Shown piece by piece: positions 6,048 to 30,424 of a stretch of DNA of 33,050 nucleotides. Made by a program: the position numbers and the translations under genes. Position 1 is the stretch's first letter, and every line of letters begins with the position of its first letter. The notes beneath the pieces were generated by a model. That model did not search any database, was not told the origin of the DNA, and saw only the letters and a list, made by a program, of their open reading frames with translations. Where the stretch lies: NCBI GenBank assembly GCA_031286095.1, contig JAITUY010000234.1:1-33050 (forward strand), in the 5' to 3' direction. Origin of the DNA: Treponema sp. Lineage in GTDB: Bacteria; Spirochaetota; Spirochaetia; Treponematales; Breznakiellaceae.

Positions 6048-6126
6048 TTTACCACAAACCTCACAAACAGATATAAATTAAAAGTTCGTGAGTGTACCGA
6101 AGGTACGCAGTTGTCGAACAAGTCCA
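6048..6126. repeat. Dispersed intergenic repeat, copy 1
   Basis: This stretch shares TTTACCACAAAC, TCAC(A/G)AA and the 18-bp core TACCGAAGGTACGCRGTT with the element at 30282-30424. It contains an inverted repeat, CTCACAAAC (6060-6068) with GTTCGTGAG (6084-6092), with one mismatch. It ends in TTGTCGAACAAGTCC, a word that recurs with one change at about 30515. The rest of 5976-6451 holds no gene. A CACGCAGAGGACGCCAAGG-type stretch near 6199 looks repeat-like. Confidence 0.55.
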
Positions 6127-6734: not shown

Positions 6735-6807
6735 GCCACCTTAGCTCAGTTGGTAGAGCAGCAGACTGAAAATCTGCGTGTCTGGAGTTCAATTCTCCGA
6801 GGTGGCA
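6735..6807 (+). tRNA. tRNA-Phe(GAA)
   Basis: A 73-nt cloverleaf: acceptor GCCACCT with AGGTGGC, D arm GCTC/GAGC, anticodon stem GCAGA/TCTGC with loop CTGAAAA (anticodon GAA), T arm TGGAG TTCAATT CTCCG. CCA is not encoded. The convergent restriction-modification gene ends ten bases away, so this tRNA end may mark an accessory-gene boundary. I found no second copy of the tRNA 3' end in the window. Confidence 0.96.
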
Positions 6808-6817
6808 CTTTAAGTTT

Positions 6818-9800
6818 TTAAATATCTATCTGCCGTTGTATATCAATTGTAAGGGACAGTACGGTAATGATTTTCCGGTAATGTTCAATTTCATCAAAAC
6901 TAAGGATATGACCGTTTCTGTCTTTTAACCATTTTTGCGCCGGCTTGTAACCGCCAATGTAAAATTCCCATGTTTCAATGGGAACATTGTCAAAATATTG
7001 TGTTTTGTTGATAAATACTTTTCCGTCTTGGCTTGCATGTCCGCCGGAAAGGCGCTTTTGCAATGATATTTCGTTACTGCCCGCAACGGGAAAAGTGGCT
7101 TTGTCATGTGAGGGGCTGACATCCTCCATTAGGTGCAACCGGCGCAGAAGAGAGCCGAGACCGGCAAGGCGGTAAAATTCTTCCGCGTTTGCCGGATAAG
7201 GTACGCGGGGGAAATCAATTTTTAATAGTTCTTTGTATTTCGCACGGTAGGAGGGGCTGTGCAGAACGGCGTATATGTAATCAAGTATGTCAACCGGGGC
7301 GAAAGTTTTTTCATTATCCGAGCCTGACGGCAAGTCAGGCAGTTTTTCTCCGGTGAATTGAAGTCCAGTTTTTTGCGCTATAGTTTGGACTATTTCGTTA
7401 TTCAAGTTTGGACGGCGCTTTTCCGTTTCGTCTAACTCTCCTTTTTCAGGGTAGAGATAAAGAGGGACGATATAATCACCCCCTTGCATACCCGGACGAG
7501 ACCAACTTCTGAATTCACTGATATGATTTGATATGAATATCGGCGGTGCGTCTTCAGTAAAACCGCGCTTGAAGATCAACCCGACATTGTCACCAATGAT
7601 GAAATGCCGCATAATTTTAATAACCGTACGCCAAACTAACGCATCTTCATAAAAAATGTATCTATTATCAAAAGGACGGTAACTAATAGGTTTTACAAAA
7701 CAAGATAAATCATCTTTATTCTGAATATTCTTCCACCCTTTCAATATATCCCAGCCTTCCTTATATTTTACATTAAACTTTTTATGCAAATATATTCTTT
7801 CTGCCGGGCTTTTTTTAAATTCAGAGAACCTATTTATAAGTTTGTCTTTGTTTTCTGAAATTACAAAATCATCATGCGCGGTTGTAATGCCAGCCCCATT
7901 TACCGGAAACATATCATTTATATAAAATCCTTTTTCATATTCAAGTTTATTATCAAATATTTTATTAACAAAAAAATAATTATTGCCTTTTAGTTCTACC
8001 TCATTCCATTGAATTGAAGTAATATCATTACTATCAAGATAATCGTATTTATATTTTCTTGTGCCATAAAGGTCAGAATAAAAAACCTTTGCAAGCCCGT
8101 CATTTTTCCTGTCTGTCTTAATAAACAGATTTATACTTACTCCCTGCTGAATATCAAATACATTTTCGTCTTTGCTCCCGTCAGGGCAGGTTTCTTTCTT
8201 TCTTGAATTCCCGTGCAGATTGAGAATATATATTTTGTCAAACGTCGTCAGTAAATGCCACCGCATGCCCCTAAAAGTAGGATTATCCAAAAAGCCGTGA
8301 TTATTTATAAACGCAAGAACTCCAGCTCCGTATTTTTCGATAAATGTTTGCCCATAACGTATAAACTTCACATAGTCGTCATTAAGCCATTTTTGGTTCT
8401 TTTCTTTAAGTTTTTCTTTTCCTCCCGGCTCTTTTTTATACGGGGCAAGAAATTCCTCGCTGGTTAAATTTGCGCTCTCGCCGGAATAAGGCGGATTTCC
8501 CAATACCACCATTACGGGAGTGTTTTTCTTCACTTTATTCGCTTCTATCGCCTCATCAGTCAGCCATTTTCCCATAAAAAGTTCAGGCACTTCTTTTGGA
8601 GGTTCCTCAAGGCTGTTTGTCAAAAATACTTTAAGGCGGGAAGTTTCACCTGTCCTGTTGTCAGGCGGGTCCCCTGTGTAGCCTGTTTCTTTTAACTTCA
8701 TGTCCAGCTTAAAATGCGCCATCGCGTAGGATGCCATCAGTATTTCAAAACCGTTTATGCGGGGTATTAAATGATCTGTGCAATAACCCTGCCACGCTCC
8801 TTTGTTGAATGCGAAATGAGAATAGATTTTTTCGATTACTTCGGCAAGAAACGTCGCTGTTCCGGCGGCAGGATCGAGTATTTGGACTTTATGAAAATCA
8901 AGCGTCTTCTTTGTTCCGTCCGTATCAAGAACGGTGTTTTTCAATTTTGAATGATCCGCAAGTCCGTCTTTTATGTTGAAATCTGATTTAAGAATATCAT
9001 CAACGGCGCGTACTATAAACCGTACTACGGGCAATGGTGTATAGTATACGCCCCTTGTTTCACGGAGTTCAGGGTCATATTTTGCAAGAAATGTCTCATA
9101 AAAATGTATATAGGGGTCCTGATTTGCCTTTAAGAATTCTTTTTTAATATCTTCCACCGCGACACAGTTAAAAATGTCGGCTAATGCGTCAACTATCCAC
9201 ACTATGCGGGAGTCAAGGTCTATTCCGGCTATGTAATTAAAGAATCTCCGTAAAAAAGGATTAGATTGCGGTATAAGTTGAGCCGCCAAAAAGCGGGTGA
9301 ATGGTTGATTGTCCGTCTGATTTAGCCTCGCGGCGAACAGTCCGTAGGCTAGCGTTTGGGCGTATATGTCGGAAAACTCTAACAAGCCAAGATTGTGCAA
9401 CAATATTTTTCTAAAACTTTCGTATTGTTCTGTAATAGTGTCGCTGGAAACCGACTTGTCCATAAGAGCTTTATGTATTATTTCCGTAAGCAATTTTGAT
9501 TTGTCGGCCATTATTTCCGCGAGGTTTCCGCTTGTGCTGATTGTTTTGCCTGAATAAGATGTAAACTCTTTTATCAGGCTAATAAAAGCGTCATAATTAT
9601 CTTTTTCAGGGATAATTGAACTTGCCGTCTTTTTTGGAGACTGGTTTTCATGCGCTATTGTAACTAAAAGCCTTTGTTCGCCGTCAACATAGTAACGGAA
9701 GGCAAGATAATCGGTTATTATCAAATTGTTCAGAGACTGGCGGTAGCGGTCAAATTGTTCCTTATTCTGTTTATTGTCCAAGCCTACGGGTATATTTTTC

Positions 9801-10055
9801 GCCTCTACATAGCCTAAAGGTATATTGCCGCGGGTGATTATGAAATCGGGTGCGCCGCAGACGATATGTTTAGGCTCATTTGTGACTGTAAGCCCTTTTG
9901 TAAGATTTTCAAAAAGCGTTTTTAAGGCGGGGCGGTAGCTGTGTTCAGTGGCGTTCCCGCCGTGGTAGATTTTGTCAATTTCGGTAATGTAGCGGGTTAT
10001 CGCCTGCGTATAAGATGCTGTTTCATGGGGGGGGGGGGGTATGTTTTTTAATCAT
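6818..10055 (-). CDS. Phase-variable type ISP/IIG-like restriction-modification enzyme (frame OFF as written)
   Basis: One polypeptide that should both cut and N6-adenine-methylate DNA. The best start is the ATG at 10055-10053, seven nt after AAGAGGG. Six codons later comes a run of 13 C; as written the frame stops at once (TGA). With 12 C it reads 1078 residues. In that reading, residues 40-86 hold a PD-(D/E)XK nuclease of the Mrr/type ISP kind (YRPAL, then GAPDF with D70, then YVEAK with E84 and K86). About 210-240 is a helical coupler (LGLLEFSDIYAQTLAYGLF). The methylase has motif I DPAAGTATF near 394 and motif IV NPPY near 520, with PDGSKDENVFDIQQG after it. A target-recognition region with YRPFDNRYIFY follows. 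LlaGI-type enzymes carry a helicase of several hundred residues between nuclease and methylase; there is no room for one here. The stretch around 7680-8130 (recognition part) looks AT-rich compared with its flanks, as in swapped specificity domains. The only start in the open frame as written is TTG at 9781, without a Shine-Dalgarno and after the nuclease domain. Confidence 0.88.
10027..10039 (-). repeat. Poly-C(13) slippage tract inside the restriction-modification gene
   Basis: Thirteen G on the plus strand (13 C on the coding strand) lie after the codons for M-I-K-K-H. The open frame through the nuclease and methylase needs a count divisible by three (12 or 15). Thirteen gives an immediate TGA, and 14 gives a stop about nine codons later. 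This is the layout of contingency loci that switch by slipped-strand mispairing. Confidence 0.85.
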
Positions 10056-10113
10056 ATAGAACCCTCTTAATTATTCAGATTTGTCTTGTAAAACTGATTT
10101 CTTAACATTGAAT

Positions 10114-10257
10114 TTGTCCGGCAACTGCGAACCTTCGTTTCTAGTTGGTTGGTCTTATGACCAGCTTCGCCGGTCTGTCCCGCAGTTTTCCGGTCTACGG
10201 TCTGCAAAACTGCGATTTTTATAATAAAGTTCTTCAGAAACTGAAGTTCCCGGACAA
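10114..10257. repeat. 144-bp multi-hairpin element with inverted ends
   Basis: The ends are TTGTCCGG (10114-10121) and CCGGACAA (10250-10257), a perfect inverted pair. Inside are three more perfect stems: TGGTC/GACCA (10150-10163), CGCAGTTTT/AAAACTGCG (10181-10214) and CTTCAG/CTGAAG (10232-10246). Such nested stems suggest a MITE-like element or a structured RNA, not a protein. Minus-strand ORFs through it look incidental. Confidence 0.5.
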
Positions 10258-10400
10258 CTCTATTAGCGGATCGATAAATATCTGTATTTTTATTTGGTTC
10301 CATTTTCTCTCTGCTTCTTCGTATAAATACAAGAATATAAGATATTTCAAATAGGAGCAAGGAAAAAGTCTTTTTCTACAACAATCCCTCAGTGATGTGA

Positions 10401-30281: not shown

Positions 30282-30424
30282 TTTACCACAAACTTCACGA
30301 ATAAATACGAACAGAAGAAATATATCTTACAAATTAACGAAATATAACGCGGATAACGATAAGACATCAACTAAAAATTTGCGAGCATACCGAAGGTACG
30401 CGGTTCGTGTTGGTTCGTGGTAAA
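30282..30424. repeat. MITE-like intergenic repeat, copy 2
   Basis: A 143-bp element with near-20-bp inverted ends: TTTACCACAAAC... (30282-30301) and its imperfect complement at 30404-30424. It carries the core TACCGAAGGTACGCGGTT (30388-30405), shared with 6048-6126. The word TTGCCGAACAAGTCC follows about 90 nt later. It lies in the divergent gap between prfA and 30571; I see no gene in 30214-30570. Confidence 0.6.

Follow-up and report, generated by a model that had tools for sequence, protein, structure and literature searches.

The window, the whole stretch of DNA analysed, comprises 33,050 nucleotides from Treponema sp. (assembly GCA_031286095.1, contig JAITUY010000234.1). On its minus strand, a run of C stands between a start codon and a long open frame for a restriction-modification enzyme in a single chain. 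The features of the locus are these:

10062..10068, minus strand: Shine-Dalgarno-like AAGAGGG, 6 nt from the ATG (read from the sequence)
10053..10055, minus strand: ATG start codon, peptide M-I-K-K-H-T-P... (sequence and frame analysis)
10027..10039, minus strand: homopolymer of 13 C (tract-length frame test)
10023..10025, minus strand: TGA closing the frame at 13 C (sequence and frame test)
6818..10027, minus strand: frame open past the tract, 1069 codons and a TAA (6818-6820), for the predicted type IIG enzyme (P0001)
9548..10027, minus strand: N-terminal PD-(D/E)XK nuclease region, residues 1-160 (invariant residues; DrdV fold alignment from residue 6)
9779..9781, minus strand: first in-frame TTG past the tract (residue 83), a weak candidate for an internal start
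8048..9538, minus strand: helical segment and N6-adenine methylase, about residues 164-660, with DPAAGTATFL and NPPY (Pfam N6_Mtase, invariant columns, fold matches)
6863..7915, minus strand: Type_ISP_C specificity domain, residues 705-1055 (Pfam PF18135, E 3e-72)
6735..6808, plus strand: tRNA-Phe, immediately past the enzyme gene on its 3' side

The start of the gene and its reading frame

On the minus strand, ATG ATT AAA AAA CAT A leads into the tract; as in a phase-variable gene, a long homopolymer is so placed that its length sets the reading frame. A sequence-only reading of this place had named the 13-C tract, the immediate TGA, the ATG and the AAGAGGG, and all are present. With 13 C, as assembled, the product is a peptide of 10 residues; the frame is closed, which is the captured OFF state that the same reading described. 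The frame opens at 9 C (1077 codons), 12 C (1078 codons, reproducing the length that had been announced for the loss of one C) and 15 C (1079 codons). At 10, 11, 13, 14, 16 and 17 C it is closed, by stops that come within 9-20 codons; the claim that 14 C stops at once is right as to closure but not as to distance, the stop coming only after 19 codons. The figure of 13 C is a single consensus of one assembly in 270 contigs.

For the body frame, the closest upstream stops lie at 10054 and 10069, and no ATG, GTG or TTG occurs between 10054 and the TTG at 9781. The 13 C assembly is therefore closed unless an internal start or slippage intervenes, and there is no usable alternative start codon from which 13 C would be the open length. 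Initiation at TTG 9781 would leave out the nuclease active site (D61/E75/K77). Within the 1069 codons after the tract there is no stop codon; the tract is the only lesion.

No promoter-like hexamers were found upstream of the enzyme gene. A 78-codon reading frame (10067-10303, minus strand), without a Pfam match at E 0.01, stops 11 bases upstream of the ATG; at 13 C it shares the register of the enzyme body, from which two stops sever it.

Most of the recognisable genes to either side have housekeeping functions; the neighbours include those for methionyl-tRNA synthetase, FemAB, an aminotransferase, two tRNAs, EF-Tu, SecY, RF-1 and PrmC. Ten window proteins were compared with PHROGs; the families matched were translation factors or of unknown function, and none bore a structural label. 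Eight families of imperfect repeats were found, and no clean flanking repeat marking an insertion. On these three grounds an origin of the locus as a mobile element was rejected, and no prophage is claimed. At 6048-6112 and again at 30282-30405 of the window, two pairs of imperfect direct repeats (26 nt, 85%; 44 nt, 80%) are found near each other; these intergenic stretches may belong to a longer repeated element.

The class of the enzyme

Pfam at E 0.01 recognises Type_ISP_C and N6_Mtase alone, and PDLC03610 matches the enzyme with 1054.7 bits. All 35 aligned homologs retain D61, E75 and K77, and likewise P386, A387, G389, T390, N511, P512, P513 and Y514 of the methylase; we take these invariant residues to be those of the nuclease PD-(D/E)XK motif and of the methylase DPAxGT and NPPY motifs. 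Conservation is lowest at residues 721-780, within Type_ISP_C.

Folds were compared by predicted-fold alignment (VIA-align) against chosen structures. The alignment with DrdV (PDB 7lo5, 7lvv), a type IIL/IIG enzyme, spans residues 6-1069; those with LlaBIII and LlaGI (PDB 4xqk, 5ffj) cover only the chain from about residue 160 onward, and matches to type I M subunits begin at about residue 164. Identity to DrdV is 21%, and the rmsd is 14.9 Å over 887 residues; the domains would thus be placed differently in the predicted model.

LlaBIII and LlaGI are type ISP enzymes, ATP-dependent and equipped with a helicase, which in this type sits between nuclease and methylase. The window enzyme differs from them here: neither Pfam at E 0.01 nor the fold alignment reveals a helicase or ATPase domain between its nuclease and methylase, where the gap is about 140 residues. 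With the helicase absent and the two ISP folds matched only from about residue 160, identity as type ISP was rejected. The sequence-only reading had called the enzyme ‘helicase-less type ISP-like’; it was correct about the helicase, and the class has to be changed. What is found instead is a nuclease, an N6-adenine methylase and a specificity region in one chain, with catalytic residues and without a motor, as type IIG/IIL enzymes have. Domains, invariant residues and fold alignment agree on this single-chain layout, which had also been proposed. By sequence and predicted fold, then, the enzyme is type IIG/IIL, DrdV-like, with an ISP-type C-terminal domain.

Tracts in related genes and genomes

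Within the genus of the window, 4 of 39 genomes match at E 0.001 or better, its own genome counted; at E 1e-100, matches occur in 23 of 195 genomes of the family and in 24 of 390 genomes drawn from the order. A scan of named genomes gave 76 homologous loci, with the N-terminus visible in 54 and both ends in 48. In five of the 76, a run of 14-16 C is present, either inside the gene or no more than 230 bases before the match. In L039, 16 C directly follow a GTG, which is out of frame with an otherwise stop-free body. In L031 (15 C) and L034 (14 C), the tract falls at about residue 972, and homology resumes beyond it in another frame; the pieces before the tract are stop-free and the tails open to their end, the sole break being the tract itself. 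L028 has 15 C at 84 bases before its ATG (a hand count), and L037 has 14 C at 192 bases before. The tract thus lies in the frame region in three of the five, at the start or near residue 972, and all three of these genes are out of frame. Runs at contig ends were left uncounted (64 C near the end of L034; in L050, 9 C outside the gene). Another homolog, L071, lies in several frames and has no tract.

A tract just past the start codon is rare. The sequence-only reading had named relatives with a non-repetitive sequence at this site as evidence against itself, and nearly all relatives are of that kind: among the 54 named loci that show the N-terminus, L039 alone has a tract there. The rarity can be read, from these sequences, as gain of a tract in particular lineages; it still weakens the case. 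The same gene with other C counts, which that reading suggested seeking in related treponemes, did not turn up: none of the 39 genus genomes contains the locus again at a different tract length, and the next best match is 63-65% identical. Nor was there an exact 24-base match in viral contigs. Some of the 55 viral-contig homologs are partial; none has a C/G run of at least 10 within the gene, and one has 9 G.

The tract-bearing relatives are not fully independent witnesses, since the two tracts at residue 972 may share ancestry. In a 28-row tree, with tracts of all positions lumped, the six genes that bear tracts require five changes, of which well-supported branches force at least four; three of the five may represent one gain and two losses, and the tract label clusters no more than it does under shuffling (173 of 500 shuffles are as low). 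More than one gain of a tract across the homologs seems likely from the tree, though not proved.

Several minor observations concern these loci. L031 and L034 have conserved ends and a recognition region without blastn similarity, which looks like an exchange of specificity domains; their records carry one sample code, Gx481. At L109:4754-5011, part of the enzyme N-terminus (residues 5-86) occurs a second time, shortly downstream of a full copy. L039 sits in a record titled as a roe deer rumen alphaproteobacterium; its genome, G416, has 21 tracts of at least 10 in 2.0 Mb. In four frames of G416 (L232, L236, L237 and L242), 14-15 C follow the same TTAAAAATATA, upstream of likely starts; these tracts are a possible promoter-type switch.

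How surprising such tracts are depends on the genome. That of the window (G000, 2.77 Mb) has 15 C/G tracts of at least 10, ten of them of at least 13; a gene of this length would be expected to contain about 0.012 tracts of at least 13, and it is this low figure that makes the start-site tract stand out within G000. Across the 23 homolog-bearing genomes of the family, tracts of at least 13 number from 0 to 250 per genome, 1192 in total. The four richest, G061, G095, G097 and G099 (169-250 each), are those in which L034, L031, L028 and L037, respectively, are found. A tract in or near a gene is not rare in such relatives, and part of the comparative signal is therefore background.

If tracts were spread uniformly through the 23 genomes, 1.3 in-gene tracts would be expected against the three seen, the window's own included (P 0.15); for the gene with 250 additional bases, 1.4 would be expected against five (P 0.015). 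Tracts are not, it seems, commonly placed within genes: of 40 sampled (20 from G061 and 20 from G042 and G059, a convenience sample of three genomes), three have at least 100 open codons on both sides, and none of the 20 from G061 does, a count that may be too low because for 12 of the 40 the stretch ends no more than 300 bases away. Corrected for this coding share, the expectation falls to 0.12 in-gene tracts against the three seen (P 2e-4); with a coding share two or three times larger it would be 0.23-0.35 (P 0.002-0.005). The three in-gene tracts are thus surprising only after correction for the low in-gene share of the sampled tracts, and the support that the relatives' sequences lend to a slipped-strand switch is moderate, not overwhelming.

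G000 contains a second tract-bearing type IIG gene (contig C134, L010:1347-5144, minus strand). Here 16 G lie at the junction of TRD1 and TRD2, between the first and second Methylase_S domains, and the second domain is out of frame. A further frame break occurs at 7 G between nuclease and methylase; at this place the in-frame reading in four relatives is GGQLF or GGQIF. To judge from its sequence, the gene might have two switches or be decaying. In its homolog L169 (G074), 19 C are found at the TRD1/TRD2 junction, but past a stop.

Other tracts of G000 lie in genes of other kinds. Three related proteins of about 900 residues with a YidC-type N-terminus (L013:3891-6593, L013:7487-10189 and L019:2089-4767, all on the minus strand) each have an in-frame G tract near codon 150, and two of them have weak sulfatase matches. 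A DUF4910/DUF2172 protein (L015:8663-11308) has 21 C in frame, and a nearby GNAT acetyltransferase gene has 14 C at its 3' end; judging by look-alikes, the cluster is presumably of the sugar-acid or sugar-nucleotide type. On this reading, G000 also has tracts inside genes of surface or sugar type. The four tracts in the YidC-like and DUF4910 genes are all in frame, whereas the five tracts that lie within type IIG frames (the window, L031, L034, L039 and L010) are all out of frame, a contrast of 1 in 126 by chance. It is given little weight: the groups were picked post hoc from several genomes, and other tracts of G000 that lie within reading frames were omitted (L011, L016, L014, the GNAT 3' tail and one in L015:404-742), as was L169, because a stop precedes its tract.

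A probable switch and its alternatives

One way to account for the arrangement is that the gene is a phase-variable type IIG restriction-modification gene controlled by slippage at its C tract, and on the sequence evidence this is probably the case. During replication, the tract past the start codon would gain or lose single C residues by strand slippage. Lengths divisible by three (9, 12, 15) would align the 1069-codon body with the ATG, and the gene would be ON; the enzyme is then predicted to methylate adenine in its recognition site and to cut unmethylated DNA. At the other lengths from 10 to 17, an early stop would turn it OFF. As nuclease, methylase and specificity share one chain, both activities would switch together, and no unprotected nuclease would be left behind on switching OFF. 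The population would then consist of restricting cells and cells that accept foreign DNA, with differing methylomes. We infer slippage in vivo, activity of the enzyme, and effects on phage and on gene expression.

Several lines of evidence lead to this reading. The tract stands right after a start codon with a good ribosome-binding site and without an alternative start; the 1069-codon frame beyond it is intact and keeps its invariant catalytic residues; L031, L034 and L039 are out of frame solely at their tracts; L010, a further type IIG gene of G000, bears a tract as well; the 55 viral-contig homologs lack long in-gene C/G runs; and comparable arrangements are described as switching in Cj0031 (PMC4889913) and JHP1272 (PMC3936762). 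The slipped-strand switch of the sequence-only reading can accordingly be called probable, on account of the three out-of-frame relatives and L010.

The window enzyme is an addition to phase-variable type IIG enzymes already known: such enzymes are established in the accounts of Cj0031 (PMC4889913) and of JHP1272/HP1353-HP1354 (PMC3936762), and the sequence-only reading was right that they exist. Cj0031c of Campylobacter jejuni NCTC11168 has 9 G at base 2573 of 3732, and its switching was measured (PMC4889913), whereas that of the window enzyme is a prediction from sequence. Like the window enzyme, Cj0031 joins nuclease and methylase in one chain, and its frame contains a C/G homopolymer; a frameshift is predicted to abolish both activities, and many homologs are tract-free (PMC4889913). 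The joint loss of cutting and methylation is said there to avoid self-cutting when the gene switches off. The two differ in that the tract of Cj0031 lies in the gene body and that of the window right past the start codon, and in that Cj0031 was aligned to Eco57I and TaqI_C domains, as against N6_Mtase and Type_ISP_C (PMC4889913). JHP1272 of Helicobacter pylori (1071 residues) is likewise a type IIG enzyme turned on and off by a homopolymer frameshift; JHP1272/HP1353-HP1354 has a second tract further downstream, comparable in place to those of L031 and L034, which adds a small domain and changes specificity (PMC3936762); the residue-972 tract of L031 and L034 may change specificity or may kill the enzyme. 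A poly-G tract that changes specificity is described for the type I subunit NgoAV HsdS of Neisseria gonorrhoeae, where it truncates the distal specificity region (PMC6789123); the tract of L010 might act in a similar way, in a single-chain type IIG enzyme rather than a type I subunit.

For spirochaetes, the sources offer less. Treponema pallidum is mentioned for its large repeat-based repertoire (PMC11868660). In the available portion of a survey that includes six Spirochaetaceae methylomes, phase variation appears once in the discussion, for type III, and otherwise in references (PMC4752239); in that of a 2026 review, type IIG is named in the reference list only (PMC13076061). Among the open-access matches listed, none was, by its title or the start of its abstract, about a phase-variable restriction enzyme of a spirochaete, which is weak evidence of absence.

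A second perspective supposes that there is no switch: the assembled length may be off by one, the gene being fixed at 12 C and on, or the locus may hold a recently dead copy in which the tract expanded neutrally. The sequence is indeed one consensus, related genomes contain up to 250 tracts, most of the 40 sampled are without long flanking open frames, and L071, multi-framed without any tract, demonstrates that such genes do die. Against this, L031, L034 and L039 are broken as well, only at the tract; the window frame is free of other lesions; and three in-gene tracts in 23 genomes are improbable by chance at each of the coding shares considered (0.12 expected, P 2e-4; P 0.002-0.005 at the larger shares). 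The absence of a switch is thus unlikely, without being negligible.

Leaky expression at 13 C, by slippage of RNA polymerase or ribosome, could supply some full-length enzyme and a low level of activity instead of, or beside, on/off control. A 13-base homopolymer right after the start codon is, from general knowledge, a plausible slippery site, but nothing else in the sequence favours the idea, and long C/G tracts in bacteria are best known for slippage at the level of DNA (PMC4889913); we consider it very unlikely. Scarcely credible is a closed state that still makes a nuclease-free methyltransferase, from TTG 83 (just past D61/E75/K77) or ATG 173 (near the start of the type I M-subunit matches, and ATG in 33 of 34 homologs), so that the tract would toggle cutting with protection kept: by eye TTG 83 lacks a good ribosome-binding site, codon 83 is TTG in just 5 of 34 homologs, and M173, equally conserved in tract-free homologs, need not be a start.

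If the tract switches, random control of restriction and DNA methylation extends to uncultured gut spirochaetes and, among type IIG enzymes, to a branch resembling DrdV. That tracts arose repeatedly within one enzyme family, at sites of different function, is probable from the sequences compared; the family would then provide a testable case of one type of switch acquired on several occasions in different places. Such a case would bear on what these switches are for: defence against phage and uptake of DNA, or control of genes through methylation. A larger proposal can be offered only tentatively, and may well prove wrong: that type IIG enzymes of gut spirochaetes are repeatedly randomised by homopolymers arising anew (past the start codon, at the TRD1/TRD2 junction, near the C-terminus, or upstream); that this genome runs at least two such enzymes, clonal cells differing both in restriction and in the sequence recognised; and that the usual state of the population is off.

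In C. jejuni, most other tract-bearing loci encode glycan-modifying enzymes (PMC4889913). The mix of surface-type genes and restriction enzymes that carry tracts in G000 resembles the Campylobacter set.
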